DNA of 29,359 nt from positions 1-29,359 of IMG/VR virus record IMGVR_UViG_3300035034_000918, one strand, 5' to 3'. Positions within the stretch are counted from its first letter, which is position 1, and each line of letters opens with the position of its first letter. This document shows positions 9,964 through 28,026 of this stretch, piece after piece. The position numbers and the translations under genes were made by a program. The notes below the pieces were generated by a model that saw nothing but the letters and a program-made list of their open reading frames with translations, did not search any database and was not told the DNA's origin. Source of the DNA: a virus.

Positions 9964-10337
9964 GTTGTGTCCACTCCGCTGTCTAACAAGTAAGCGTTCG
10001 CAACAGCTTTCTGAACTGTCTCGTCACCATAGTACTTACGACTAAGTAATTCTTCCCAGGAAGTTTCTACCGGATTCCATTGCCCTTCAAATCCATAGCA
10101 TGAGCAATGGGTACCGTATGTTTCAAATAACTTTCCATTCTTCCTGAAGAGGCAGAATGAATCTTCTTCGTAGGAATAGCAATTGAATTCATACACAAGG
10201 ATTGTCGCACCTTGAAGAGATTTCAATACATCATTATGTTCTGTTTTTCCTTTTTCATCATTTTCAAAAGATGAATACCAGTCTTCGGCAATTGATTTAG
10301 CAGTTACGTCTTTAACATCATTCATAATTTTACTCAT
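9951..10337 (-). CDS. Conserved-type phage hypothetical protein (HCSCYGFEGQW)
   Basis: The product is 128 residues from MSKIMNDVKD; the longer frame to 10433 runs inside the upstream gene. A central region, ATILVYEFNCYSYEEDSFCL, then KNGKLFETYGTHCSCYG, then FEGQWNPVETSWEEL, matches a phage protein family that senses or binds something with a 'Y-Y----G-AF-L---dGkLyEV-GSHCSCYGLEGQW-PE-T' layout. The family is common but uncharacterised. The start overlaps the end of the IS110-like gene by 8 bases. Confidence 0.65.
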   Translation of the reverse strand: MSKIMNDVKDVTAKSIAEDWYSSFENDEKGKTEHNDVLKSLQGATILVYEFNCYSYEEDSFCLFRKNGKLFETYGTHCSCYGFEGQWNPVETSWEELLSRKYYGDETVQKAVANAYLLDSGVDTTWTQ

Positions 10338-11157
10338 TAGCCATAGGCCAGTTAGGTGGTGCAAGGAAATGAGTGTGCCCACCATGCTCAATGATGTACG
10401 GCTTGGGCGGTGCCTTCTTGAATGTCGATTCAAACAAGACGTGATGGAAGTGCGAAAGGAAAAGCTTCACTGCATACCGCCGCGCACGGGCATCGATCTG
10501 CCCATCACTTAGCTTGCCACTCTCAAGCTTGTCTCTCGTGTCGTTCTTAGCGTAGTTCTTTTCGGTGAGCTGCCTCGCTGCCGTCTCGGCATTGCCTCCC
10601 GCCTCGTTCCTGTCGATCTCGTATGCCTTTCGTTCCTCGTACACCTTGCCATACACGTCGTTGTCGTAGCCTCTCAGCTTCATGAAAGACTGGCCGATCT
10701 TCCACGTCAGCACCTTGAGGTCAGCGTTCCAAGGTCGTCGCGTTTTCTTTTCCCACTTCACTGTTGGGTCAAGCCCCGCGAATCTCCAGATGTGTCCGAC
10801 TGTTGGTGCCTTGTTGATGTCGATGTGGGCAAGGAGGCCAGCCGAAATGACAGGCCCGATACCATGAATGGAGAGCATCCACTGCCCTGCCTCTGTGCTT
10901 TTAACGTACTGGTTGAGCGTTGATTTAATTCCTCCCTCGATGGTCATGTAATTTTCCATGTTCCATTCGATGATCTCGTTAGGCTCACCTGCCTTGGAAG
11001 ACTCACGCATCTGTGCGCTTGTCCTGATCCTCAGCTCTTGTGCATCGTAGTATGAGTCAACGAGATACCTCGCCTCGCTGCTGCTTAAGGCACTTGCTGC
11101 ATTGCGTAGGTCTTTGTTTACTTTCGTTACTAACTCGATTCGGTCATCAGTATTCAT
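10330..11157 (-). CDS. IS110-type transposase C-terminal domain protein (phage form)
   Basis: The product is 275 residues. Residues 94-160 carry the helix-hairpin-helix and following core of the IS116/IS110/IS902 C-terminal domain: MLSIHGIGPVISAGLLAHID, GHIWRFAGLDPTVKW and RRPWNADLKVLTWKIGQSF. The N-terminal 90 residues are helical and do not show the DEDD/RuvC-like catalytic domain of true IS110 recombinases, and no IS ends are visible around the gene. It is therefore likely a resident phage protein that has kept only the DNA-binding/Tnp part. AAAGGATTGAC precedes the ATG. Its role is unknown. Confidence 0.7.
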   Translation of the reverse strand: MNTDDRIELVTKVNKDLRNAASALSSSEARYLVDSYYDAQELRIRTSAQMRESSKAGEPNEIIEWNMENYMTIEGGIKSTLNQYVKSTEAGQWMLSIHGIGPVISAGLLAHIDINKAPTVGHIWRFAGLDPTVKWEKKTRRPWNADLKVLTWKIGQSFMKLRGYDNDVYGKVYEERKAYEIDRNEAGGNAETAARQLTEKNYAKNDTRDKLESGKLSDGQIDARARRYAVKLFLSHFHHVLFESTFKKAPPKPYIIEHGGHTHFLAPPNWPMANE

Positions 11158-11297
11158 GTCAATCCTTTCAATATTCTATGGCTCACTCTTATATTTTGTA
11201 ACTGTCGAGAGCAATGGTTCATTCCTTAAGTATGGTGCGCTCAAGTTGAGAGATTCATTCACCTTCTACGGTACGATCTTTTACGCATGATTCATTC
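11153..11297. repeat. Degenerate 36-bp tandem repeat array 1
   Basis: The block G[GA]TTCA[TC]TC recurs at 11180, 11216, 11252 and 11289 (period 36-37), with a second block resembling GGTAACTNTC about 18 bases before it in each unit. Unit identity is low outside the blocks. It fills the gap upstream of the gene at 10330-11157. A related array lies at 11917-12024. Confidence 0.6.
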
Positions 11298-11891: not shown

Positions 11892-11910
11892 TAATGTCCA
11901 TTGGACATTA
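11892..11910 (-). promoter_or_regulatory. Palindrome copy 1 (perfect)
   Basis: TAATGTCCATTGGACATTA, 9-bp perfect arms around one base. It lies 16 bases before the ATG at 11875, abutting its AGGAGG site. Confidence 0.8.
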
Positions 11911-11916
11911 GCATTC

Positions 11917-12024
11917 GTAGAATTTGGTACTCTCGAACTTTTTGATTCACTCTCACATTTTGTAACTATCAAGTGTAGAGGTTCACTCATTGCATGTGTA
12001 ACTATCGAACAGAGTGGTTAGTTT
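11917..12024. repeat. Degenerate 36-bp tandem repeat array 2
   Basis: The block G[GA]TTCACTC occurs at 11944 and 11980, with a diverged copy at 12016, exactly 36 bases apart; GGTACTCTC, TGTAACTATC and TGTAACTATC precede them at the same offset. The last unit overlaps the stop of the VWA gene at 12018. Unit 11953-11988 matches unit 11189-11224 of array 1 at roughly three quarters of positions. Confidence 0.65.
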
Positions 12025-13646
12025 ACCTTGATCTCTACAACCTTGCCCCACGGAGGTCGGTTGTTGTACTCAGGCCAGCCGGGGTAGGTGCCTGGGGTAA
12101 ACACCGGCTCGCTTGACATCCAAAGAACGTCACACTTAGGGCGTGGCACGGACACCGCAGAGCCCAGGTCGGTGAACACGACCACACCGTCAGGAGTACC
12201 CGACTGTTGTTGAAGCCAGATGAATGGCGCATCAAATCGAGTGCCCCCGCCGACAGGAAAGCTAGACGGGATAGGGTCATTGGGTCTCAGATCAACGATA
12301 TGACCATGAAGAACGCGCGTGTTAAACGGCACGATAGTCAGACGTTTAACGCTTACGGTCTGTCGGATGCGAGTGAACTGGGAAGACAGAGCCCTATGTG
12401 CAGGCCAGTCCATTGAAATAGACACATCCCAGAAAGCGACCATCCAGTCCACTGATTCCTTGATCTCGGCTGGCTCGTACCGCCCAAGCTGCAAGCCACG
12501 TCGATCAAGCCTGCTCCACGAGCGACCAGAAGGGTTGCCGTTCTTAGTGAAGAAAGATCTGAGTACGGTAGACCAATCAGTACTAGGCTTAACGAGATTA
12601 TCTACAGTTCGCTTAGCGTAGACAGCACCGCTGTTACCGGCGGAAGAATGATGCATGTTCTTCGCCATCGAAAGATCTTCCTTGAGGTCATGCATTGCGT
12701 CACGCTTCTCAGATTCAGAGAGCGCACTGCCATCCTCGTTGGTCGCATCCCACACCTCACCCCAAGGCACATCCTCATAGGCATCAGAAAGTTTAGACTT
12801 AATAGAAGCCTCGCTTGAGTCAGCATCAGGCTCAGGTGGACGATCCTTGATGTCACCGACCTGCTTGCCTTGGCTTGGGTCATTTCCATCATCATCACCA
12901 TCACCATCACCAGATACATCACCTCCATCACCATCATCACCAGCATCAGCGTCAGTATTCTCAGAGCGAGCATCCGAGTCAGAGTCAGGACCAGAAGGTC
13001 CATCGCCTTCCTCTTGCTGGATCACGGGATCACCAGTCCCGTCGCCGGGTTCATCATCAGAGCCAAGGTCATCATCAGCAGGCTCGTCACCCGGATCACC
13101 ACCACCCTGCCCATCGCTACCGACAGGACCATCCTGCTGCTTAGGCTTCTTGGGTTGGGGCGGATTGATCTTGGCGTTGTCTACTAGGTAGTGATAGATG
13201 CGTTCCTCTGACCAGCCGGTGTACTTGGAATCACACAGCCCGCCCTTCGGGAGCGTGAAGCCAGATGCAATCATCATAAGGTTAATCAAATGATCGCAAG
13301 CAATATTCCAAAGCTTGGCATCCTTGTTACCTCGGCGAATGTCATGCCCTAGAGAGACGTGCCAGTACTCATGCATAAGCAGGCCGATCTGCTCAGCCGT
13401 CGTCAAGGGATTCCAAAAATCATGGTTGACATAGAGATACTTGCCGGAGACAGCAGCGGTCTTGACTTCCCATCCGTTGGGAGCGACAGCACCGACGATC
13501 ACCGTCATGCCCATCGCTTTAGCTGCAATGAAAGGCTCAGACATCAAACCTTTGAGTCGGCACTTGGCAATCTTCGCCTTGATCTTGTCAACCTGAAGGC
13601 CACTGAGTGGTGTGTACTTGTTACCAGTACTCTTAACGATATCCAT
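12018..13646 (-). CDS. VWA-domain metallopeptidase-like protein (DUF2201 type)
   Basis: The product is 542 residues from MDIVKSTGNK; AAAGGA six bases before ATG 13646 selects this start over 13670. Residues 91-101 read MHEYWHVSLGH, an HExxH-x4-H metallopeptidase motif, followed by NIACDHLIN as in DUF2201 proteins. A long Gly/Asp/Ser acidic linker occupies roughly 150-270. The C-terminal third is a VWA fold with a complete metal site: DVSIS (Asp407, Ser409, Ser411), Thr469 in GGGTRFD and Asp493 in VVFTDLG. Such proteins act as substrate adaptors for MoxR-type AAA ATPases, and one is encoded next door. The target in the phage-infected cell is unknown. Confidence 0.85.
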   Translation of the reverse strand: MDIVKSTGNKYTPLSGLQVDKIKAKIAKCRLKGLMSEPFIAAKAMGMTVIVGAVAPNGWEVKTAAVSGKYLYVNHDFWNPLTTAEQIGLLMHEYWHVSLGHDIRRGNKDAKLWNIACDHLINLMMIASGFTLPKGGLCDSKYTGWSEERIYHYLVDNAKINPPQPKKPKQQDGPVGSDGQGGGDPGDEPADDDLGSDDEPGDGTGDPVIQQEEGDGPSGPDSDSDARSENTDADAGDDGDGGDVSGDGDGDDDGNDPSQGKQVGDIKDRPPEPDADSSEASIKSKLSDAYEDVPWGEVWDATNEDGSALSESEKRDAMHDLKEDLSMAKNMHHSSAGNSGAVYAKRTVDNLVKPSTDWSTVLRSFFTKNGNPSGRSWSRLDRRGLQLGRYEPAEIKESVDWMVAFWDVSISMDWPAHRALSSQFTRIRQTVSVKRLTIVPFNTRVLHGHIVDLRPNDPIPSSFPVGGGTRFDAPFIWLQQQSGTPDGVVVFTDLGSAVSVPRPKCDVLWMSSEPVFTPGTYPGWPEYNNRPPWGKVVEIKVN

Positions 13647-13660
13647 TTCATATCCTTTCT

Positions 13661-13679
13661 TAATACCCATTGGACATTA
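13661..13679 (-). promoter_or_regulatory. Palindrome copy 2
   Basis: TAATACCCATTGGACATTA. The two departures from the consensus become G-U and U-G pairs in the minus-strand RNA. It lies 14 bases before the ATG at 13646 and directly before AAGAAAGGA. Confidence 0.75.
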
Positions 13680-13692
13680 AGCTTCGTAAAAA

Positions 13693-14814
13693 CTAAACAT
13701 TCAGGTGCTTGAACTCTCGCTTGAAGTTAGTGAACTCTTCAGTCACAGCACAGAACTCAGGGTTGGCATCGGCCATCATCTTGAAAGCAAACACTGCCAA
13801 GCCCTCGTCCATGCGCTTGATGTACTTGATCGCAGCCTCTGCCATCTCGCGAGTGATGTGTTCGCCCGCATTCTTGATACGACCGAAGTCATAAGCAAGA
13901 TTGCAAGCCATCGCATAGCAAGCCGATGCGTTGTGATTGGGAACCGGAGCATCATCAGGGTTGAGATAGATCGCCTCGACAGGACACAGTTCAGAGGCCA
14001 TGCGAATGAAGCCGCCGAACTCAAGGCCAATCTCTTCGCCGCACTTGTGCTGGACGATCTGAGAAACCATCCGATCATTGTGCAGAGGCAAAGACTCGAT
14101 CAGGTAGGACGACTTAGCCCACGAGCGAGGTGAAGCAAAGGCTCCAGACTTGTCAGGGTTGAAGTTATACAGATTCTCAGGCTTCCACTGAATGTAGGCA
14201 CGAATCCGAGGGTCAATCCCTTCGGACGCAGCCCAGGTGAGCCAGACCTCAGCGTCAGGGTCAGGCATATTGAAGATGTACATACGATCTTCAAGCGACT
14301 TGATCAGCTCGTTGCCGCCACAGTTGTCTTCGGGTCGGTTAGCACCAGCCATGAAGAACAGATTCTTATCGACAGGAGAACCCTCAAGGCTCCAGTCTTC
14401 AAGCATCGACTGAATGCCACCCTGCTGGTCAGGCATACACTTGTCGATCTCGTCCAGCATCATAAGCACACCGTTGTACTTATCCTTATCGTAAGAAGCT
14501 TCGATAAACTTCTTGGTAGTCAGGAACTCAACGGTCATCGTCTTCATGTTGGGCACGAGAAAACCCTGAATGTCAGGGCTAGGTGTACGAGACAGAATCG
14601 ACACCGCAAGCAAGAGCTGACGAGACTCAGCAAACTGTGCTGCTCGCTGCGTCTTACCAATGCCGGGTCCGCCAAGGAACGTAAAGATTGAACCACGACC
14701 AGGGATCTTGTCTACCTGAGTAGAGAGACAAGCGTTCATCATCATGAACATGTCATCCTCGATGGTCGGGTGCGAAGTTTCCATAAGAAGTTCGTTAAGT
14801 GGAGTGCGTGTCAT
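13693..14814 (-). CDS. MoxR-type AAA+ ATPase
   Basis: The product is 373 residues. Walker A is GGPGIGKT at 48-55, Walker B LMMLDEID at 117-124, sensor 1 lies in MAGANRPED (Asn159), and an Arg-containing ASPRSW region around 230 fits sensor 2. The compact layout without extra domains is MoxR/CbbQ-like. It should form a ring that uses ATP to remodel a target through its VWA partner, encoded immediately downstream. AAGGAT precedes the ATG, and palindrome copy 3 lies further upstream. Each of the three genes of the trio has its own leader palindrome. Confidence 0.88.
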   Translation of the reverse strand: MTRTPLNELLMETSHPTIEDDMFMMMNACLSTQVDKIPGRGSIFTFLGGPGIGKTQRAAQFAESRQLLLAVSILSRTPSPDIQGFLVPNMKTMTVEFLTTKKFIEASYDKDKYNGVLMMLDEIDKCMPDQQGGIQSMLEDWSLEGSPVDKNLFFMAGANRPEDNCGGNELIKSLEDRMYIFNMPDPDAEVWLTWAASEGIDPRIRAYIQWKPENLYNFNPDKSGAFASPRSWAKSSYLIESLPLHNDRMVSQIVQHKCGEEIGLEFGGFIRMASELCPVEAIYLNPDDAPVPNHNASACYAMACNLAYDFGRIKNAGEHITREMAEAAIKYIKRMDEGLAVFAFKMMADANPEFCAVTEEFTNFKREFKHLNV

Positions 14815-14845
14815 TTGGTTATATCCTTTTCATATTCTTAATTGA

Positions 14846-14864
14846 TAATGTCCGATGGACATTA
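14846..14864 (-). promoter_or_regulatory. Palindrome copy 3
   Basis: TAATGTCCGATGGACATTA: 8-bp perfect arms with an altered three-base centre. It lies 31 bases before the ATG of the AAA+ gene at 14814. Confidence 0.78.
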
Positions 14865-14880
14865 AATTTGTGGGTTGTTT

Positions 14881-15786
14881 TTAGTAGTTGTCTGTTGCAG
14901 GCGGTGCCATCTGTCCGAAGTGTCCGATGCGATCAAGGATATCATCAGCCTTCTTCGATGCGTCTTCGCGGATCTTCTCGTCCACTCGCAGAGTCTCAGG
15001 GTTCATGTGCGCAAGGTCTTTCAAAATCTGCTGTCGCACTGACTCAACCAAGGGATCGTTGCCGATGTTAAGATCCTTCACCTTCTTCAGGAGGGCATCA
15101 ACCTTGGTCACGGTCACGTCACGGAAAGAACCCTTCTTCTGTCCCGTGTACCCATCCATTGCTTCTTTGAATCCGCCGATCGTTTCGGTCATGATGCTGC
15201 CAAGGCTCTCTAAGGAATGAGCAAACTTTTCCTTCTCCTGTGTGGCGACAAGAGATCGGAACCGTTCACGCTGCGCAGCCGTGATGCCAGCTCGCGGGTC
15301 ATGCTCAGGGTCAGGAACCAACTTGATGTCATACTCGACGTATACTTTCGAGCGGATCTCGTCCGCTGTCGGGTAGTCTTCCTCTCGGAAAGCAGAGCCA
15401 AGAGCAATGCGCTGCTCTTCGATCCAAGCAGGCAGCTTGTCGCAGACCTTCTCGACCTGCTGCTCGCAATCAATCTTGCAATCGCTTGCGATTTTTTCAA
15501 GCTCATCAGTCTTGAGGTTCTTCGCGATGCGATAAACATCCCAAGCCAGACTCAAATCATTGAACTCGTTTCTCGCACGGACCTGAATATTTTTCAGCTC
15601 CTTCACTTCTTCGCTGCCCATTGCGTCGATGGTTGTCTTGAACTTCTTCGGGTCAGCTTGATGCTGCTGTGCAGTACCATCGGAAAGATCCTTCCGAGTC
15701 TTTCGCTGTCCGAACATGCCCATAGAAAGCTTGACCAAAGAACACTCTTCTGAAAGCTTCATTCCACTATCTTTACCGTTACTCAT
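14881..15786 (-). CDS. Helical third protein of the AAA/VWA trio (DUF3150-like?)
   Basis: The product is 301 residues, starting MSNGKDSGMKLSEECSLVKL. SMGMFGQRKTRKDLS near residue 21 resembles the opening of DUF3150-type phage proteins (strand, then a 'W-G-kkl---DL' turn), followed by long charged helices up to the end. It lies first in the trio with the AAA+ and VWA genes, so it is probably a partner or substrate of that machine. AAGGGATATACCA precedes the ATG. The family call is tentative; the operon link is clear. Confidence 0.65.
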   Translation of the reverse strand: MSNGKDSGMKLSEECSLVKLSMGMFGQRKTRKDLSDGTAQQHQADPKKFKTTIDAMGSEEVKELKNIQVRARNEFNDLSLAWDVYRIAKNLKTDELEKIASDCKIDCEQQVEKVCDKLPAWIEEQRIALGSAFREEDYPTADEIRSKVYVEYDIKLVPDPEHDPRAGITAAQRERFRSLVATQEKEKFAHSLESLGSIMTETIGGFKEAMDGYTGQKKGSFRDVTVTKVDALLKKVKDLNIGNDPLVESVRQQILKDLAHMNPETLRVDEKIREDASKKADDILDRIGHFGQMAPPATDNY

Positions 15787-15825
15787 TGGTATATCCCTTC
15801 ACTCTCGGCACTTGATATCCGTTGT

Positions 15826-15844
15826 TAATGTCCATTGGATATTT
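15826..15844 (-). promoter_or_regulatory. Palindrome copy 4
   Basis: TAATGTCCATTGGATATTT, the most diverged right arm. It lies 39 bases before the ATG at 15786 and downstream of hairpin copy A in the same leader. Confidence 0.65.
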
Positions 15845-15858
15845 AAGTGCATGTTTTA

Positions 15859-15879
15859 AGCAGGTCGTTAGACCGTACT
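15859..15879 (-). promoter_or_regulatory. Bulged leader hairpin, copy A
   Basis: On the minus strand: AGTA, a bulged C, GGTC, loop TAAC, GACC, then TGCT. Outer pairs are A-U, G-C, U-G, A-U; the U-G wobble pairs only in minus-strand RNA. It begins about 12 bases after the predicted start site of the promoter at 15897-15924. Confidence 0.7.
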
Positions 15880-15885
15880 ATTGGA

Positions 15886-15914
15886 TTGAGATAACAAGTA
15901 TAGCACACTATAAA
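15886..15914 (+). promoter_or_regulatory. Plus-strand sigma-70-like promoter for the small-terminase candidate
   Basis: -35 TTGAGA (15886-15891), 17-base spacer, -10 TATAAA (15909-15914). It overlaps the minus-strand promoter at 15897-15924, so the two probably cannot be occupied at once. Confidence 0.65.
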
Positions 15915-15924
15915 CACTTGTCAA
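15897..15924 (-). promoter_or_regulatory. Minus-strand sigma-70-like promoter for the AAA/VWA trio
   Basis: On the minus strand, -35 TTGACA (15919-15924), 16-base spacer, -10 TATACT (15897-15902). Both hexamers are near consensus. The leader that follows contains hairpin copy A and palindrome copy 4. Confidence 0.75.
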
Positions 15925-16023
15925 CTCTTCTTGTTAATTAAAATAAAATAAAAACATACAATAAAACAAGTCGTCTATCATACAAGACTCACTACTCTGT
16001 GGGTTCACGAAAGGATTTCTTCC

Positions 16024-16764
16024 ATGCCCCTCACAGGATTGGATGCACATAACAAAATGTCAGACAGCCCAAAGAAGAAGCGCAAGCTTGTTAAACACGG
16101 CCCTGAGCGTACAGAACTAACCGACATCGAACAGAAGTTTATCAGCGAGATACTTAGAGACGATGCCAACAGGCCCACCACTCTCAGCGCAGCGATGCGT
16201 AACGCTTGCCCTGAGAAAAGAAAGTGGACATCCAAGGCCCTCACTAATGACGCAAGCCGAGTCTACAATCGAGACATCGTAAAGGATGCCATCGAAAGAA
16301 AGCGTGCGGCCATAGAAAGAGAGCGAAGACGCTCAACCAGGGTGACTAAAGCGTTCATCGAGAATCGTCTAGTCGAGGAGGCAACCAACGCTGACAGGCC
16401 AGCGGACAGGATCGCCGCACTCAGGGCGCTCGCCTCCATGCAACCCGAAGAACTACCCGAAGATCCAACCAAAGATGCAGCCTCCAAGGAAGATCTTGTG
16501 AATAGGTTGGAAGATATTCTTCAAGAGAAATTAGGATCAGCGATCGACGTAACCCCAGAGCTTGACGTGTCTGCAATCGAGGCCACCTCCGCAACCAAGT
16601 CATCCACGAGCATGTCCACAGCAGACCTGACTGACCTGACTGACGACGATGAGGAGGACGACGATGACGATGGTGTGATTGACGTTGAGGTTGTGACTCC
16701 GGCGGAACCTGAGCCTGAGCCAGACCTTGACCCCGTAACCAAAGACTCAGAGCCTGCGTTCTGA
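16024..16764 (+). CDS. Small terminase subunit candidate
   Basis: The product is 246 residues. AAGGA lies eight bases before ATG 16024; MSDSPKKKRK (residue 12) lacks its own site. Residues 32-90 read LTDIEQKFISEILRDDANRP, TTLSAAMRNACPEKRKWTSK and a helix ending VKDAIERKR, the helix-turn-helix plus alpha-hairpin layout of small terminases (LT-kQ-kFv--yl-d--n---A---aG). The tail is acidic (DDDEEDDDDDG). It would recognise the packaging site and recruit the large subunit, encoded 6.4 kb away. It is the only plus-strand gene in this zone and is driven by its own promoter. Confidence 0.62.
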   Translation: MPLTGLDAHNKMSDSPKKKRKLVKHGPERTELTDIEQKFISEILRDDANRPTTLSAAMRNACPEKRKWTSKALTNDASRVYNRDIVKDAIERKRAAIERERRRSTRVTKAFIENRLVEEATNADRPADRIAALRALASMQPEELPEDPTKDAASKEDLVNRLEDILQEKLGSAIDVTPELDVSAIEATSATKSSTSMSTADLTDLTDDDEEDDDDDGVIDVEVVTPAEPEPEPDLDPVTKDSEPAF

Positions 16765-16767
16765 TTC

Positions 16768-16995
16768 TTAATGTCCATTGGACATTTTATCTAGGTAATC
16801 GTAGTCAATCACGATCTGTCCCTTGGACTGCTCAAACGCTCCATCCTTCTTGCCCATTCGATACGCACCGAACGGTATGACTGCGTAGACTACGCTTCGC
16901 ACCATTAGATCTAATTCGTAAGACAATCCCATGCCTTGAATCATTGGCACAAAATTAAGAGTGAATACTGACGCAGCTAAAAGAATTCTATTCAT
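16768..16995 (-). CDS. Small membrane protein
   Basis: The product is 75 residues from MNRILLAASVF, preceded by GGTGAATCAA; an ATG at 17007 would add four residues but sits too near its site. Two hydrophobic stretches, ILLAASVFTLNFVPMIQG and MVRSVVYAVIPFGAYRMG, suggest two membrane spans or a signal plus one span, followed by a soluble tail. The last codons MSNGH are encoded by palindrome copy 5. It converges with the plus-strand gene ending at 16764, three bases away. Function is unknown. Confidence 0.55.
   Translation of the reverse strand: MNRILLAASVFTLNFVPMIQGMGLSYELDLMVRSVVYAVIPFGAYRMGKKDGAFEQSKGQIVIDYDYLDKMSNGH
16769..16787. promoter_or_regulatory. Palindrome copy 5, inside a gene end
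   Basis: TAATGTCCATTGGACATTT. Unlike the others it lies between convergent genes, forming the last codons of the gene at 16768-16995, with no minus-strand gene immediately downstream. Confidence 0.75.
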
Positions 16996-17410
16996 TTGAT
17001 TCACCATTCACCTTTCGTTCCACACTCTCAAGTCGGCTTGAGAATTCTTCAAGCATAGACTGAAGTGCTTCGGCTTGCGATCCATCCCATTCCTTAAGCC
17101 ATGCATTTACTTTGTCCCAATTTCTAGGGGCAGGCTTTGAATCATACTCGATTCCAAGCCATGGATTAGGCGTTGAGACAACGTAGTCAGCAGCCATGGC
17201 CCAGGTAAGCAATTCAGAACGTGTAGATTTATAGTTTGCAAACTCTGAGTCATCACCGATGTGATTGGATGCGAAGTCTTCAAGCAAATCACACGCATAG
17301 ATCTGATCCGTTCGGTCATTCATAGTTTCATTCTCGCAAGCATCCTTATAGCTAATGATATTTTCACGAGCCAATCCAAGCACCATCTCTACTGCATCAC
17401 AAAGATTCAT
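16988..17410 (-). CDS. Hypothetical protein
   Basis: The product is 140 residues from MNLCDAVEMVLGLARENI; AAGGG seven bases before ATG 17410 selects it over 17434. The sequence is acidic and helical, with YACDLLEDFASNHIGDDSEF near the start and a helical coiled-coil-like end (LQSMLEEFSSRLESVERKVN). It overlaps the membrane-protein gene below by 8 bases. Palindrome copy 6 lies in its leader. No family is recognised. Confidence 0.6.
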   Translation of the reverse strand: MNLCDAVEMVLGLARENIISYKDACENETMNDRTDQIYACDLLEDFASNHIGDDSEFANYKSTRSELLTWAMAADYVVSTPNPWLGIEYDSKPAPRNWDKVNAWLKEWDGSQAEALQSMLEEFSSRLESVERKVNGESNE

Positions 17411-17424
17411 TTTGATTCCCTTCT

Positions 17425-17443
17425 TATTGTCCATTGGACATTA
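17425..17443 (-). promoter_or_regulatory. Palindrome copy 6
   Basis: TATTGTCCATTGGACATTA, 14 bases before the ATG at 17410, directly followed on the minus strand by AAGAAGGG. Confidence 0.78.
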
Positions 17444-17451
17444 TGTTTTGG

Positions 17452-17838
17452 CTACTTGTTCTCGTAGATTCTGAAACAAAACATGTCGCCAACTTCAATA
17501 CCACATTCATTATGGATGAAGTCGTGCATGTTTCCATAGATAGTGAACTGAAGAAAGCAATGCTCTTGCGAGATCTTGCATCCAGCCATGATGGCTGAAA
17601 ATCTGAGAAGCCAAGCATTTATAAACCCACTATGCTTAAGCGAAGGCTCATTGCCTCCGTTATTCGATGAGATTTCGACAGTAATCTTATTCCAAAGTGG
17701 AACTAGTCCATCTCTTGGAACGAATTCTTGTGCAATAAGCGGCTCAGAGCAGAGGTGAGGCCTATCTCTTTCTCCAGAGATTTCCATATAAGCATCACCA
17801 CTTGGATCAAGTTCGAGATTGATTTTCTTTGTAAGCAT
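17452..17838 (-). CDS. Hypothetical protein with CGIxVG C-terminus
   Basis: The product is 128 residues, mostly beta-rich (INLELDPSGDAYMEISGERD), with five Cys in the second half. The end reads FIHNECGIEVGDMFCFRIYE, echoing the end of the gene at 18814-19281 (KVCGIDVGYEFHAYFQ), so the two may share a C-terminal module. AAGGATATTCAA precedes the ATG, and palindrome copy 7 precedes that. Function is unknown. Confidence 0.6.
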   Translation of the reverse strand: MLTKKINLELDPSGDAYMEISGERDRPHLCSEPLIAQEFVPRDGLVPLWNKITVEISSNNGGNEPSLKHSGFINAWLLRFSAIMAGCKISQEHCFLQFTIYGNMHDFIHNECGIEVGDMFCFRIYENK

Positions 17839-17854
17839 TTGAATATCCTTTTCT

Positions 17855-17873
17855 TATTGTCCATTGGACATTT
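17855..17873 (-). promoter_or_regulatory. Palindrome copy 7
   Basis: TATTGTCCATTGGACATTT, 16 bases before the ATG at 17838, followed on the minus strand by AAGAAAAGGATAT. Confidence 0.78.
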
Positions 17874-17898
17874 GTTCAAGCGTTAGGCGAATCATCTA

Positions 17899-17937
17899 CC
17901 CCGTACCTATCCAAGCATACGGGGCTAGTGATTAGCC
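17899..17937. repeat. Two adjoining hairpins between genes
   Basis: CCCCGTA (17899-17905) pairs with TACGGGG (17918-17924), and GGCTA (17923-17927) pairs with TAGCC (17933-17937). They sit just after the stop of the gene at 17937-18140. No T-run follows on the minus strand, so termination is uncertain. Confidence 0.5.
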
Positions 17938-18140
17938 TAGCCTCTCTGCTCGTAGTCATTGAGTATCACTTCAGCACACCCATTCCAGAATGCAGAGCGA
18001 CTCACTTTCTTAAGCCTCCTGCATCTTGAGTATTCTTCTCCGCAATAGGTGACAGCCTTAAGATGGTCACCATCATGCTCTTTCAAGATGCCCATAGCAA
18101 AGGCCTCTTGATCTTCAGGTGTCGAGTGTTCTAATCCCAT
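17937..18140 (-). CDS. Small hypothetical protein
   Basis: The product is 67 residues from MGLEHSTPEDQEAFAMGILK; GAGGGG before ATG 18140 selects this start over 18236, which lies inside the upstream gene. The sequence contains YCGEEYSRCRRLKK, then SRSAFWNGCAEVILNDY, probably two helices. It follows the upstream stop by about ten bases. No family is recognised. Confidence 0.55.
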   Translation of the reverse strand: MGLEHSTPEDQEAFAMGILKEHDGDHLKAVTYCGEEYSRCRRLKKVSRSAFWNGCAEVILNDYEQRG

Positions 18141-18150
18141 ATCTAACCCC

Positions 18151-18495
18151 TCAATTCCACACGTACTTGATGCGTCGATACTTGGAGCCATCATGCTCCC
18201 ACACTGAGCCACGCCACAAGTTAATGCAGAGTGCATGGTTTCTGTTATGCGTGAAGATTCGGAAGCGCTTCCCGCTCACCTCCACACCTGTGATCTTGTA
18301 CTTCGGCTCCGCACTGACAGGCCAGTAGTCAGAGCTAATGGCATCATGCATATCATCGAACCAATGAGTCATTCCCGATGGCAGTCGAACTCCAACCCCC
18401 TTACCGATAGGCCTGCCATCGAGCAAGCGAACGGTTCCTCCATGAGGCCCGTTGCCCTTGCACTCAGAGATTACATAGTTATTAACATTTTCCAT
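18151..18495 (-). CDS. Hypothetical protein
   Basis: The product is 114 residues starting MENVNNYVISECKGNGPHGG, with AAGGGA before the ATG. Alternating short strands and Gly/Pro turns (TVRLLDGRPIGKGVGVRLPS, KYKITGVEVSGKRFRIFTHN) point to an all-beta fold. It follows the tiny lipoprotein gene by 15 bases. Nothing catalytic is seen. Confidence 0.6.
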   Translation of the reverse strand: MENVNNYVISECKGNGPHGGTVRLLDGRPIGKGVGVRLPSGMTHWFDDMHDAISSDYWPVSAEPKYKITGVEVSGKRFRIFTHNRNHALCINLWRGSVWEHDGSKYRRIKYVWN

Positions 18496-18510
18496 TTGAA
18501 TTCCCTTCGT

Positions 18511-18621
18511 CTACTCGCACTCTTGGATGCAATAGCATCCATCATTAGGTTCAGGCTTCACACTGACACAACCAATCATCAGCACACACATTAGAGCGAG
18601 GATTAAATATCCATTGGACAT
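18511..18621 (-). CDS. Tiny Cys-rich lipoprotein-like peptide
   Basis: A 36-codon frame starts at the ATG inside palindrome copy 8, overlapping the upstream stop as TAATG. It reads MSNGYLILALMCVLMIGC, a hydrophobic signal ending in a near-lipobox (LMIGC), then a 17-residue tail with three more cysteines (GCYCIQEC). Lack of a positive charge near the N-terminus and Met at the -3 position are departures from typical lipoproteins. Outer-envelope attachment is an inference; a spanin-like role is conceivable given the tiny size. Confidence 0.45.
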   Translation of the reverse strand: MSNGYLILALMCVLMIGCVSVKPEPNDGCYCIQECE

Positions 18622-18623
18622 TA
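18605..18623 (-). promoter_or_regulatory. Palindrome copy 8, at a TAATG junction
   Basis: AAATATCCATTGGACATTA. On the minus strand it contains both the stop of the gene at 18621-18821 and the ATG of the lipoprotein-like frame. Confidence 0.72.
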
Positions 18624-18821
18624 AAACTCAGCTCCACAGTGATGGCAGTATCCGCCGCCGGGATAGGTGTGCGTCCATTGATGACCGTACACCTTGCAGT
18701 CACGTCCGGGCCTGAGTCCAGGCCACTTATCGAACGCCTCCTCTTGCTCACGGTCGAGTCCGCCGCGCACAAGATCCCATCCAACCATCACAGTTTCCAC
18801 GTCGTCGATCTTCTTACCCAT
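18621..18821 (-). CDS. Small zinc-finger-like protein
   Basis: The product is 66 residues from MGKKIDDVETVMVGW; the frame's longer version overlaps the upstream gene by 100 bases, so ATG 18821 is preferred. The C-terminus reads CKVYGHQWTHTYPGGGYCHH followed by CGAEF, giving C-x4-H and CxxC-type ligands for one zinc, a layout typical of small phage zinc proteins. The stop overlaps the next start as TAATG. Function is unknown. Confidence 0.62.
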   Translation of the reverse strand: MGKKIDDVETVMVGWDLVRGGLDREQEEAFDKWPGLRPGRDCKVYGHQWTHTYPGGGYCHHCGAEF

Positions 18822-19281
18822 TCCACTCTTCTCCGATCTTCCATTGAAAGTATGCATGGAATTCATACCCCACGTCGATACCGCATACTTTACTAAGCCA
18901 CTTAACAAGCGCTCCATAGCTCATAGAGTGAGTGTACGCTGATGAACCATCACACGATGGTAGAATCATGAACCCATCAGCAAGCACATAGCCTTCCAGC
19001 TCAGTTGGAAAGTCATTATCAAAGCAGCATTCATAGTTCCCAGTCACATGAAGCACGACGCCAGTTGCATCCTTAGGAACATTGATTCCATACTCTTGAA
19101 GGCCACCGAGGCAGATGAAATCATCCCATTCTTCCTCGTCGTCCATCTCGTTCTCGACGAACACAAGATCGTTCGTATCCTCACGCATATCGGCGTCGTC
19201 CAAAGGAAAACGAAAGTGCAATCTTATTTGATGTGCTGCTCTTCGCTTTGCCAGTTGCTGCTCTTTGGTATAGCTAGTCAT
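18814..19281 (-). CDS. Hypothetical acidic protein with CGIxVG C-terminus
   Basis: The product is 155 residues. The N-terminus is basic and helical (YTKEQQLAKRRAAHQIRLHF), then an acidic segment (VENEMDDEEEWDDF), then strands with GVVLHVTGNYECCFDNDF. The end, ALVKWLSKVCGIDVGYEFHA, resembles the end of the gene at 17452-17838. It is coupled to the upstream gene by ATGA. No family is recognised. Confidence 0.58.
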   Translation of the reverse strand: MTSYTKEQQLAKRRAAHQIRLHFRFPLDDADMREDTNDLVFVENEMDDEEEWDDFICLGGLQEYGINVPKDATGVVLHVTGNYECCFDNDFPTELEGYVLADGFMILPSCDGSSAYTHSMSYGALVKWLSKVCGIDVGYEFHAYFQWKIGEEWNG

Positions 19282-19442
19282 TTCACTCCCCTCTCTACGT
19301 CGAATGCATTCTGCACTTCGGCTTCGGCTTCAGCCTTGAGTCGGTCGTCGAACTTGTAGGCTCGGCCATCAGGATGAAGAGAAAACTCAGACCCCTTGCG
19401 TACAAACCAAACGCCACCCATTTCAAACGGTTCCCATATCAT
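19278..19442 (-). CDS. Small hypothetical protein
   Basis: The product is 54 residues from MIWEPFEMGGVWFVRKGSEF; GAGG eight bases before ATG 19442 selects this start. A beta hairpin (GGVWFVRKGSEFSLHPDG) precedes a helical tail (RLKAEAEAEVQNAFDVE). It lies between palindrome copy 9 and the gene at 18814, to which it is coupled by ATGA. Function is unknown. Confidence 0.55.
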   Translation of the reverse strand: MIWEPFEMGGVWFVRKGSEFSLHPDGRAYKFDDRLKAEAEAEVQNAFDVERGVK

Positions 19443-19460
19443 TTGATCTACCTCATTTTT

Positions 19461-19479
19461 TAATATCCATTGGACATTT
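19461..19479 (-). promoter_or_regulatory. Palindrome copy 9
   Basis: TAATATCCATTGGACATTT, 18 bases before the ATG at 19442 and only 17 bases after the terminator at 19496-19534. Confidence 0.75.
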
Positions 19480-19495
19480 AAATTTGTATGGTTCC

Positions 19496-19534
19496 TACAA
19501 AACAGGGGGCCGCAGCTCAATGCCACGCCCCCCT
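19496..19534 (-). terminator. Intrinsic terminator, minus strand
   Basis: On the minus strand AGGGGGGC pairs with GCCCCCT (one bulged G) around a 16-base loop, followed by GTTTTGTAG. It lies after the gene at 19563-19811 and about 50 bases before the next start codon. Confidence 0.75.
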
Positions 19535-19562
19535 AGTCTCACACTCACTCGATCAGCTCAGT

Positions 19563-19811
19563 CTACTGCTGCGCGTACTCCACAGAGAAGCCGTCGTATT
19601 CCATGCCCAGCTCGCTGCGCAGCACATGAAGCTGTTCGTTCAAGCGTTCCACGATACGAGCCTGGATCTCAGCCGATCCAATGTCGCCGCCGAAAACAAC
19701 GCTCAGCGATTCGGAACCACTCACCTCCTCCAGCTTACGCATCGCCTTCTCGATTTTGAATTCGATTCGAGCCATCTCTCGGATGCCAGCCATTCGATTG
19801 TCTACAGTCAT
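19563..19811 (-). CDS. Small helical hypothetical protein
   Basis: The product is 82 residues starting MTVDNRMAGIREMARIEFKI. Helical segments (EKAMRKLEEV and QARIVERLNEQLHVLRSELG) flank a Gly/Ser-rich turn, so a helical hairpin is likely. AAAGGATATGTA precedes the ATG. Palindrome copy 10 and a CAGGC-GTAAA-GCCTG hairpin lie in the leader. No family is recognised. Confidence 0.55.
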   Translation of the reverse strand: MTVDNRMAGIREMARIEFKIEKAMRKLEEVSGSESLSVVFGGDIGSAEIQARIVERLNEQLHVLRSELGMEYDGFSVEYAQQ

Positions 19812-19842
19812 TACATATCCTTTCAGGCTTTACGCCTGCGCT

Positions 19843-19861
19843 TAATATCCAATGGAAATTA
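19843..19861 (-). promoter_or_regulatory. Palindrome copy 10 (diverged)
   Basis: TAATATCCAATGGAAATTA. The centre is inverted and one arm position is unpaired. On the minus strand the preceding bases make TATAAT. It lies 31 bases before the ATG at 19811. Confidence 0.6.
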
Positions 19862-19880
19862 TACTTTTGGCTTTTGTTTT

Positions 19881-19994
19881 GAATCACAGTGATTCTCATA
19901 TCCCCCACCCGTCAAGGCATAGGGGATATCAGCATCGCTGATTTACTCGAAACGGGATCGGAGGAGCGAACTAAGCGGAGGCCTCTCGGCCTCC
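19881..19994. repeat. Cluster of four dyads between genes
   Basis: In order: GAATCACAGTGATTC (19881-19895, perfect); ATATCCCC with GGGGATAT (19898-19929); ATCAGC-ATC-GCTGAT (19928-19942); GGAGGCC-TCTC-GGCCTCC (19977-19994). They fill the gap after the gene ending at 20007. None has a downstream T-run, so operators or processing sites are as likely as terminators. Confidence 0.6.
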
Positions 19995-20006
19995 ACTTGA
20001 TCCAGA

Positions 20007-20702
20007 CTACGCAGCCTTCGCTGCCTCAGCCTTCTCAGCCTTCGCTGCCTTCGCCTTCGCTGCCTTCTCAGCCTTCTCAGCCTTCGCTTTTACTGCCTTC
20101 TCTCGCTTCACAGCCTTCGCCTTCTCGGCGGCGGCCAGCTTCGAAAAAGCCTTCGCCATCTTGGGGTCCTTCAGAGTCTCAAGCGCTTCTTTTACATCCG
20201 TTCCCAGCTCAAGCCCGACGAAAGCCTCGGCCAGTTTGTAGAAAGCTGTCCGCGTATCGGGCGAGAGGAAAGCCTCAAGCTGTTTCTGATTCGAAACTTC
20301 CTTTGTCAAGAGCCATGCTTCGCACGCCTCAGGATTGCGAAGCAGAGGCTTCAGATCCGAGGAGCGCTTCAGCTCAGCTTCCTTCCGAAGCTGCTGACCG
20401 AGGAGCCATCCGCGCTCGGCCGTTCGACCGATCCCGAATTCCGCTTTGTACTCAGCGACAGCGTCCGCCACTTCCTTCGATGGCCGACCCTTACCTGCAA
20501 GCGGTACTCCAAGCGTCGCGTTGCGCGCAGCGACATGTAGCGCGACCCGCATTCCCGTGACGTTGAACCGCTGATCAAGTTTCGCTACCTCGGCTCGCTT
20601 CGCATCGGCTGACGTTTTGTCTGCATCGCCCGATTTGATCAGAGCCTTGAGGTTTGATACCAGCATGGACAGCTTCACGTTTTCAATTTTAATTTCACTC
20701 AT
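20007..20702 (-). CDS. Protein with Lys/Ala-rich histone-like tail
   Basis: The product is 231 residues from MSEIKIENVKLSM; the frame to 20765 passes through palindrome copy 11, so ATG 20702 is preferred. The N-terminal 180 residues are helical, with a GKGRPSKEVADAVAEY segment near residues 70-85. The last 45 residues are a Lys/Ala/Glu repeat of the KAEKAEKAAKAKAAKAEK kind, like the tails of histone H1-like bacterial proteins. DNA coating or condensation is an inference from that tail. The repeat makes the plus strand look open too, which is an artefact. Confidence 0.6.
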   Translation of the reverse strand: MSEIKIENVKLSMLVSNLKALIKSGDADKTSADAKRAEVAKLDQRFNVTGMRVALHVAARNATLGVPLAGKGRPSKEVADAVAEYKAEFGIGRTAERGWLLGQQLRKEAELKRSSDLKPLLRNPEACEAWLLTKEVSNQKQLEAFLSPDTRTAFYKLAEAFVGLELGTDVKEALETLKDPKMAKAFSKLAAAEKAKAVKREKAVKAKAEKAEKAAKAKAAKAEKAEAAKAA

Positions 20703-20741
20703 TTTTATACTCTCACTATGGCCCACTAGGGGCGTTGGGTT

Positions 20742-20760
20742 GAATGTCATATTGACATTA
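20742..20760 (-). promoter_or_regulatory. Palindrome copy 11 (altered centre)
   Basis: GAATGTCATATTGACATTA: the AATGTC and GACATT arms are kept, the central CCATTGG is replaced by ATATT. TATAAT precedes it on the minus strand. It lies 40 bases before the ATG at 20702. Confidence 0.6.
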
Positions 20761-20793: not shown

Positions 20794-20814
20794 AGTAGGT
20801 CGCTAGACCGTACT
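20794..20814 (-). promoter_or_regulatory. Bulged leader hairpin, copy B
   Basis: On the minus strand: AGTA, bulged C, GGTC, loop TAGC, GACC, TACT; all eight pairs are Watson-Crick. It lies in the leader of the gene at 20007-20702. Confidence 0.75.
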
Positions 20815-21259: not shown

Positions 21260-21280
21260 GGTAGGCCGCTAGGCCGTACC
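21260..21280 (-). promoter_or_regulatory. Bulged leader hairpin, copy C
   Basis: On the minus strand: GGTA, bulged C, GGCC, loop TAGC, GGCC, TACC. Compared with copy B two stem pairs have changed on both sides (A-U to G-C and U-A to C-G), keeping the structure. Confidence 0.75.
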
Positions 21281-21306: not shown

Positions 21307-21335
21307 ATCATGCCATAGGGAGTTTAGACTGTCAA
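21307..21335 (-). promoter_or_regulatory. Minus-strand sigma-70-like promoter
   Basis: -35 TTGACA (21330-21335), 17-base spacer, -10 CATGAT (21307-21312). The predicted start is about 20 bases before hairpin copy C and about 57 before the ATG at 21243. Confidence 0.65.
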
Positions 21336-21388
21336 GCATTATCGAATGGTTTTTAAACTCCAAAGGATAATAACACTCAGAAGTGTAC

Positions 21389-21405
21389 TGTGACATAATG
21401 TCTCA
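21389..21405. promoter_or_regulatory. GACA/TGTC dyad 1
   Basis: TGTGACATAATGTCTCA, nearly symmetrical, with core GACAT-A-ATGTC. A close copy, TGTGACAAAATGTCGCA, is at 21961-21977. Confidence 0.5.
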
Positions 21406-21701
21406 GACTAGACTTTTTATACTTTCTATAGGGTAGGTAGGGTCTGGGCGAACGTCGCGCACAAGCGATCCTAGGGAGTCTGAGAGCGTGCCGTTTCTGG
21501 CACAGTTTAGGCTATTGGGGCGTGGGTTCAGAGCGGGTGTATTGGCATGGTAACTGCCAATTGTTGGGGGGTGGGGTGGCTTAATCAGAGTGGAAACAAT
21601 GGGACCGCCCTGTGTTGCGTCTTAGCAGTCGTGAATGTGATATCGCGTCACAATTAGCGTGCTTTCGGTATCGTGAGACTCGATTCGTGAATTCGGAAAC
21701 G

Positions 21702-21715
21702 CGACAGTAATGTCG
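21702..21715. promoter_or_regulatory. GACA/TGTC dyad 2
   Basis: CGACAGTAATGTCG, perfect 5-bp arms with a four-base centre. Confidence 0.45.
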
Positions 21716-21775
21716 TATGAAGGGGAACCCCCCTTTTGTGGCGTTCAGAATTTCCACAAACGAACATGATTGTAG

Positions 21776-21811
21776 AGAGGCAATCTGTATTCCTTAGAGG
21801 CAACCTGTATT
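21776..21811 (+). repeat. 16-bp direct repeat, period 20
   Basis: AGAGGCAATCTGTATT (21776-21791) and AGAGGCAACCTGTATT (21796-21811) differ at one base and are spaced exactly 20 apart, close to two helical turns, as expected for tandem protein sites or an origin iteron. Confidence 0.6.
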
Positions 21812-21821
21812 TTTGTACGGA

Positions 21822-21849
21822 TTGAAACAAAGTTTCTAGGCAATAAAAT
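21822..21849 (+). promoter_or_regulatory. Plus-strand promoter candidate
   Basis: -35 TTGAAA (21822-21827), 16-base spacer, -10 TAAAAT (21844-21849), directly after the 20-bp-period repeat. It would give a transcript covering the AT-rich and folded segments before the gene at 22520. Confidence 0.45.
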
Positions 21850-21960
21850 TTCCCAAAAAAATATTATAAATGATCCGCCGTAAGGACATGAGCTTGGCAA
21901 AGCAATAAGCGTGGCGTTTAGGGTTGAGACCTAAGATCACTAATCTCCATCAAATTGATC

Positions 21961-21977
21961 TGTGACAAAATGTCGCA
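21961..21977. promoter_or_regulatory. GACA/TGTC dyad 3
   Basis: TGTGACAAAATGTCGCA; preceded by the 11-bp palindrome ATCAAATTGAT at 21949-21959. Confidence 0.5.
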
Positions 21978-22253
21978 ATTAAATAAAAGTCTCTCCTAAA
22001 ATACAACTATCCAAACGTCGCATTTGGTGAGAATGCAAGTTGTTGTCCGGCGGATAGAATTGGAAAGCTCATTTAGAAAGGTGAACGTCAGTCATGTAAA
22101 AGACTTGATTTCCATACTCAAAATATGATATTTAAGGCAAGCCTCAAGAGAACAAACGATCGGTTCCAATAGGTAATTAATCGAAACGTGATATTGATAT
22201 TTTTTACTTGGAAAAAATGTCGATATATAGTGTAGATGTGGTATTTATAGGAT

Positions 22254-22501
22254 GGTTGGATTTGGAGTTTGTTCGAAGATTTGTATGATTAGGAGGTGAT
22301 CGTTTAGAAGAAGCAAAGCTTCGTATCGTTCACCCCTCTTATGACCCACACCTTGGGGGTGTGGAGCAAAATAATCCAGAGGGTTCTCTCCAAATGATTT
22401 ATCCCTATCTATCCAATCTAAATGAGCGATGACGTACAAGATTCTTTGCGATCCTTCACGATCAACTTGGAGCAAACAGAGATCGCTCTATAGAGATAGG
22501 G
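22254..22501 (+). other. Folded leader or non-coding RNA candidate
   Basis: An extended anti-16S match, AGGAGGTGATC (22291-22301), has no start codon in range and is locked in a stem GGTGATCG (22295-22302) with CGTTCACC (22327-22334), one mismatch. Inside is GAAGC-AAA-GCTTC (22310-22322). Next comes CCACACC-TTGGG-GGTGTGG (22346-22364). Longer-range 8-bp matches are ATTTGGAG with CTCCAAAT (22260/22388), GGTTGGAT with ATCCAATC (22254/22411, one wobble) and CCCTATCT with AGATAGGG (22403/22494). The first two compete. The segment lies directly upstream of the right-hand operon. Confidence 0.45.
22467..22494 (+). promoter_or_regulatory. Weak plus-strand promoter candidate
   Basis: -35 TTGGAG (22467-22472), 16-base spacer, -10 TATAGA (22489-22494), with a start near 22501 before the gene at 22520. 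Match is modest. Confidence 0.3.
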
Positions 22502-27819: not shown

Positions 27820-28026
27820 ATGAACGTTACTGAACTACAGCGCTTGTTTCACAAAGAGGTAGAAGAGCAAATTAAGTCTTCTTCTGAATACCTCATGGGT
27901 GGAGGAGCCGAAGACCACGGTCAGTATTTGGGACTCGTGGGCAAATTAACCGGACTGAAACTTGCCCAAACAGTAATCGATCAAATCATTAATGATTGGA
28001 TTCGCAACCAAGGAGAGGATGAATAA
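27820..28026 (+). CDS. Small conserved-type protein in the capsid operon
   Basis: The product is 68 residues, starting MNVTELQRLFHKEVEEQIKS. YLGLVGKLTGLKLAQTVIDQ is a segment typical of small helical phage proteins encoded beside portal and capsid genes. Ribosome binding is weak (GGGATAACTGA), suggesting coupling with the upstream gene. The stop is two bases before the next start. Function is unknown. Confidence 0.6.
   Translation: MNVTELQRLFHKEVEEQIKSSSEYLMGGGAEDHGQYLGLVGKLTGLKLAQTVIDQIINDWIRNQGEDE

Follow-up and report, generated by a model that had tools for sequence, protein, structure and literature searches.

What does a short palindrome do that recurs before one small gene after another in a phage genome? 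We address this question for IMG/VR record IMGVR_UViG_3300035034_000918, probably a fragment, whose 29,359 bases are referred to here as the window (the whole stretch of DNA analyzed). It carries eleven copies of a palindrome of 19 base pairs (bp), TAATGTCCATTGGACATTA, in a leftward gene block that adjoins TerL and that, judging by its position and promoters, would be an early block. We consider it likely that these palindromes are a stoperator-like array of DNA operators, read by an early regulator that the phage itself encodes.

A sequence-only reading made before this analysis had described the eleven copies, and most of its description was borne out when the window was scanned. Ten copies match the 19-mer with three mismatches or fewer and start exactly where they had been listed (10 observed, 0 expected from 100 shuffles), and the eleventh, at 20742, has diverged (it reads TAATGTCAATATGACATTC on the minus strand) and scored 18.9 bits in a matrix scan against 27.6-33.5 bits for the other ten. 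The matrix was trained on the same copies that it scores; 40 shuffles gave a top score of 18.0 and a mean maximum of 4.7, and no comparable site was found outside the copies in the 29.4 kilobases (kb) scanned, the next best, at 21354, reaching 9.8 bits. All eleven copies are thus confined to 11.9-20.8 kb. Nine of them precede a minus-strand start codon by 14-39 nucleotides (nt) when checked against gene starts, copies 5 and 8 being the exceptions (Table 1), and several are followed by a module of the AAGAAAGGATAT type. The remarks on pairing were also correct, in that copy 2 keeps G-U pairing in the minus-strand RNA and copy 4 does not. The TATAAT-type boxes claimed for several copies did not hold up, as only 19843 and 20742 are abutted by TATAAT, in both cases without a -35.

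The array is unique to this record. Scanning IMG/VR with the window-type core returned single chance copies only (none of 81 loci with a zone gene or a TerL of at least 40% identity), and a scan with the ATPase yielded no close relatives of the window. The window TerL is 50% identical to those of the HTVC023P/027P-group phages and of DSL-LC04, and 41% identical to that of the cultured cyanophage Pag-Yong1. We fetched 80 relatives from IMG/VR by TerL (51-55% identity); relatives with palindromes of their own span 40-56% TerL identity overall. As revealed by a repeated-dyad search, several of these relatives carry different multi-copy palindromes in the same zone, namely CCTAACANTGTTAGG, TTACTGTCNGACAGTAA, TGTAAACANNTGTTTACA and GGGTTACN5GTAACCC, with CCTAACA(N)TGTTAGG and GAGGGTTAN7TAACCCTA listed as further forms; the spacing of the dyads varies (N0, N1 or N2), and in many copies the ribosome binding site and ATG directly follow the palindrome. 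A dyad family of at least three copies was present in 40 of the 69 TerL loci having at least 2.5 kb of the zone, and none was found in shuffles or on the structural side of these loci. This set was partly collected by palindrome, and among the loci found by TerL alone about one quarter (8 loci) were positive. A scan of IMG/VR with CCTAACANTGTTAGG, made with no protein input, returned at least 120 contigs, and 78 of the 119 loci checked carry proteins related to those of the window. Copies can be numerous, with up to 24 (two mismatches at most) in 12.3 kb of the relative L183, and a 65-kb record has its 24 copies all in a single 12-kb zone that spans the junction of the record's ends.

Pag-Yong1 has the same layout as the window, with the palindrome GGTTCAGNCTGAACC. 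Its perfect copies are mostly intergenic, typically 21-22 nt before minus-strand starts, and of 42 loose matches, 22 are no more than 60 nt from a start, compared with 10% of random positions. A literature search on Pag-Yong1 gave nothing relevant, and the palindromes go unmentioned in the published accounts of HTVC-type relatives that were checked. In a TerL tree the TACTGT, GGGTTAC and GGTTAC classes are nested, with good support, within the CTAACA clade, and therefore the palindrome word has been replaced wholesale while the layout was kept; the window itself is a long branch among relatives with no detected dyad family. The sequence-only reading had regarded loss of the copies and of their position in related phages as evidence against a regulatory network. 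The outcome was a third one: part of the clade has kept the position and number of the copies, but with the sequence exchanged. The palindrome TATTTACTAGTAAATA of G011/G019 was considered as a case of the same architecture and was not counted, owing to its T-rich 3' flank and its greater distance from start codons.

An operator, a promoter element and an RNA site had all been offered as explanations, and the operator is now strongly favored. Constraint was examined on 500 non-redundant copies of the commonest class (CTAACA). Their core, TAACANTGTTA, is nearly invariant and their half-sites vary independently: the single-arm changes comprise 195 plain mismatches, 45 G-U pairs in the sense RNA and 66 changes that keep pairing only in the antisense RNA. 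Forty-eight percent of these copies lie inside open reading frames (ORFs) versus 78% of random positions, with an excess at 0-40 nt before starts. The relatives hence display a two-fold symmetric site with independently varying half-sites, as is characteristic of dyad operators for dimeric regulators, the numbers for the window being small (4 sense G-U changes, 1 antisense G-U change and 9 mismatches). The alternative that survives best is an RNA element, a hairpin just upstream of the Shine-Dalgarno sequence that would act in the mRNA as the site of a translational regulator, as a processing site or as a stabilizer. The placement between stop codon and Shine-Dalgarno sequence, with short and regular gaps, speaks for it, as do the folding of copies 1 and 3 into the expected hairpin and the hammerhead-like structures in the early leaders of some relatives. 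Nevertheless, DNA dyads are strongly favored over RNA hairpins, because the half-sites vary independently with no sense-strand G-U preference (outer positions being mostly plain mismatches), because copies are also found inside genes, because there are even-spaced dyads in the N0-N2 range, and because copies precede the -35 of the putative regulator gene, the first of the early block. Copies between convergent gene ends and leader-fold z-scores that are mostly modest also argue against an RNA element, which we regard as unlikely.

If the dyads are operators, the question arises of which protein reads them. In the CTAACA class the first early gene encodes a single orphan family of approximately 170-210 amino acids, which was detected in 29 of 30 CTAACA loci versus none of 10 loci of other classes (E<1e-5); with loci labeled by site count the figures were 30 of 32 versus 0 of 37 (Fisher, 1.6e-17). 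A palindrome lies within 300 nt upstream of all 60 genes of this family, versus 227 of 406 other zone genes. These palindromes are located mostly near -145 and between -24 and -45, on either side of a sigma70-type promoter (TTGA...TATAAT) in those cases in which one is recognized. In TACTGT loci and TTACTGTC phages a different conserved gene comes first in the early block, and its palindrome precedes TTGACA by about 30 bp. A distant homologue of the first-gene protein of the TTACTGTC phages is found in L092, next to the palindrome TTATAGTC/GACTATAA, which shares 6 of 8 half-site bases; because this homologue carries a related palindrome, gene and palindrome appear to have co-evolved. Gene and palindrome are linked by co-occurrence and by this one case of co-variation, and the gene product would be the protein that binds the sites.

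Searches of Pfam and PHROG (E<=0.001) and a tblastn search of the isolate-phage collection gave no match for the main orphan family, whose predicted structure is helical and has a predicted local distance difference test score (pLDDT) of 81. In the window, the equivalent of the relatives' first early gene is probably the orphan gene at 20007-20702, as indicated by its position and synteny, with copy 11 just before it; the assignment is positional because no detectable sequence is shared with the other classes, and no database match was obtained for its product. A site would accordingly precede the regulator's own gene both in the relatives and in the window. A small XRE/HTH_3 protein was evaluated as an alternative reader and rejected, since its recognition helix is near-identical in CCTAACA and TTACTGTC phages and does not change with the palindrome class; it is present in 15 of 15 long CCTAACA records and also in TTACTGTC records. 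Homologues of this XRE-type protein (MSYGYS...VSRxTVYNWF; L281, 2474-2728, plus strand) are conserved in the replication module of many relatives.

Classical phage operators of the lambda, 434 and P22 type are dyads of 15-21 bp with invariant core positions and an autoregulated regulator promoter. The palindromes resemble them in dyad size, invariant core and the apparently autoregulated promoter of the regulator, but classical operators are few and clustered at one or two promoters, whereas here some 10-20 are dispersed through the operon and inside genes. Dispersal is the feature shared with the stoperators of Cluster A mycobacteriophages such as L5, Bxb1 and Trixie, which are asymmetric 13-bp sites, mainly in one orientation, bound by the immunity repressor of a temperate phage (PMC6550527, PMC9283540). 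Once bound by protein, stoperators stop transcription from elongating. As in those phages, a single short word is dispersed in many copies (theirs number up to about 30, those of the window 11), many of them near gene boundaries, the word differs between phages and tracks the regulator, and the regulator gene has a site upstream of itself. In contrast, the sites described here are dyads 14-40 nt before start codons and the candidate regulator belongs to an orphan family. Furthermore, no integrase (PF00589) was detected in 20 related records, while 14 control genomes were positive; parABS was not searched for, and the window is a fragment. A phage repressor in the lysogeny sense, as suggested by the sequence-only reading, is consequently unsupported. 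By analogy, the array would work like Cluster A stoperators, but we do not count it as a member because it lacks two defining features, asymmetry and a detected lysogeny module. The start-associated sequences (SAS) and extended start-associated sequences (ESAS) of Cluster K mycobacteriophages comprise 11-19 repeats at the translation starts of some of the genes, and 17-bp inverted repeats lie just upstream of about half of these repeats (PMC3203893). The likeness is one of position only, given that the SAS is 13 bases long, asymmetric and located directly at the start site, not a 19-bp dyad 14-39 nt upstream, that the ESAS arms are imperfect with a variable spacer, and that the description of these repeats reports no replacement of the sequence together with a partner gene (PMC3203893).

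The model that best accommodates these results is one in which the palindromes would be one lineage's version of a dispersed operator array, controlling the early transcription block in a clade of phages of about 58-66 kb. A dimeric DNA-binding protein of the phage itself, most likely encoded by the first early gene, would read the dyad and bind both its own promoter region and the sites before most early genes. We infer repression rather than activation; in the course of infection, the regulator would most likely shut the early block by obstructing both promoters and elongating RNA polymerase. Several observations weigh against this model. First, the cultured Pelagibacter phages and DSL-LC04, of the same broad clade, had no such arrays in the stretches examined. 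Second, the near-constant gap in Pag-Yong1 also fits a translational role, and the single-arm changes of the window lean slightly towards sense-strand G-U pairs. Third, the linkage between palindrome class and first early gene is partly confounded by phylogeny. Finally, no solved DNA-binding protein in the PDB matches the predicted fold of the main family as a whole, and the first-early-gene products align neither between classes nor with that of 20007-20702.

A structural or segregation protein, involved in partition, nucleoid organization, replication or packaging, might instead be what recognizes the dyads. Many dispersed dyads, some of them inside genes, in one zone beside the terminase gene would suit such a role, but enrichment just before starts and the conserved placement around one promoter fit gene regulation better; the relatives lack a detected integrase (partition genes were not searched for), and we hold this explanation to be quite improbable. 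Promoter elements, or motifs before each gene that a phage sigma factor or RNA polymerase recognizes, appear very improbable: the leader position and the TATAAT overlapping two copies could be cited for them, yet perfect dyads are unusual for promoters, the copies have no -35 boxes, none of the sites in a consensus promoter scan of the window coincides with a palindrome copy, promoter-like sites show no excess (13 found, 13.0 expected), and palindromes and strong sigma70-type promoters occupy separate sites in most classes. A selfish or mutational repeat that spreads between genes and has no function is scarcely credible, the module shared downstream of the window copies notwithstanding, since in relatives all copies have been replaced by another dyad at the same positions and the core is tightly constrained across highly diverged phages.

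As operators, these elements are ordinary in principle and unusual in form: dispersed, leader-placed and repeatedly re-specified dyads with an orphan candidate regulator and no detected integrase. Descriptions of dispersed operators come, to our knowledge, mainly from temperate mycobacteriophages. The occurrence of such operators throughout a clade of aquatic phages with no detected integrase, in a form that has been re-specified repeatedly, would offer natural regulator/operator pairs by the dozen, assign a function to an orphan protein family and provide a DNA signature for finding members of the clade in metagenomes. It is tempting to speculate, although we find it rather doubtful, that an apparently strictly lytic clade uses rapidly switching pairs of orphan regulator and operator so that the first-arriving phage silences the early block only in co-infecting phages that belong to its own palindrome class, an immunity-like exclusion without lysogeny. 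Early-gene shut-off and such specificity-typed exclusion in lytic phages become directly testable, including in the cultured Pag-Yong1.

Table 1 Palindrome copies, predicted promoters and candidate regulator gene in the window
Feature	Coordinates	Strand	Context
Palindrome copy 1 (TAATGTCCAATGGACATTA)	11892..11910	-	16 nt before ATG 11875
Palindrome copy 2	13661..13679	-	14 nt before ATG of DUF2201/VWA gene (start 13646)
Palindrome copy 3	14846..14864	-	31 nt before ATG of MoxR-like ATPase gene (start 14814)
Palindrome copy 4	15826..15844	-	39 nt before ATG of 301-amino-acid gene (start 15786)
Palindrome copy 5	16769..16787	.	Exception: between convergent gene ends
Palindrome copy 6	17425..17443	-	14 nt before ATG (start 17410)
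Palindrome copy 7	17855..17873	-	16 nt before ATG (start 17838)
Palindrome copy 8	18605..18623	-	Exception: overlaps upstream stop TAA and ATG of small lipoprotein-like ORF (TAATG)
Palindrome copy 9	19461..19479	-	18 nt before ATG (start 19442)
Palindrome copy 10	19843..19861	-	31 nt before ATG (start 19811)
Palindrome copy 11 (diverged, TAATGTCAATATGACATTC)	20742..20760	-	39 nt before ATG of candidate regulator gene
Sigma70-type promoter TTGACA-16-TATACT (11/12, extended -10)	15897..15924	-	Heads sub-block of 301-amino-acid gene; consensus match only
Sigma70-type promoter TTGACA-17-CATGAT	21307..21335	-	Head of early block; consensus match only
Orphan gene, 231 amino acids	20007..20702	-	Promoter-end position of early block; Lys/Ala-rich tail; candidate reader by synteny only

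Besides the DUF2201/VWA, MoxR-like ATPase and 301-amino-acid genes, the palindrome zone contains small orphans. Two strong sigma70-type promoters lie upstream of palindromes (Table 1); no minus-strand intrinsic terminator (a hairpin with a run of T after it on the coding strand) was found at the copies, and an Rfam search of the window gave no match. The lipoprotein-like ORF whose ATG lies inside copy 8 has 36 codons (MSNGYLILALMCVLMIGCVSV...; 18514-18624, minus strand). A second palindrome, with the consensus AGTACGGTCTAGCGACCTACT, occurs on the minus strand at 21260-21280, 20794-20814 and 15859-15879, and is possibly the operator of another regulator; two of its three copies follow the predicted start of a strong sigma70-type promoter at a distance of 10-40 nt. 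There is also a third repeat, the asymmetric GATAGTTACAAAATGTGAGAGTGAATC, located upstream of the next genes at 11980-12006, 11944-11970 and 11180-11206 (minus strand). An IS110-type transposase-like ORF (10330-11157, minus strand; PF02371, phrog_4285) sits among small phage genes. Within the leftward early block, the plus-strand gene 16024-16764 possibly encodes, by its sequence, a terminase small subunit, with no family match, and about 1.1 kb with no called gene (21400-22500) separates the divergent early and late blocks.

In the relatives, G009 has clustered dyads, TTAGGACTGTCCTAA, near promoters and no dispersed array (L108, 16434-16560; L109, around 27934-27991). Hammerhead-ribozyme-like structures were observed in early-gene leaders of relatives, just before ribosome binding sites, in L034 (3237-3290, minus strand), L109 (1947, plus strand) and L119 (12543 and 15194, plus strand; weaker ones at 10173, 11466 and 14127), that of L034 scoring 24.3 bits against Rfam Hammerhead_3 (E 0.009 in a 600-base search), which is below gathering.

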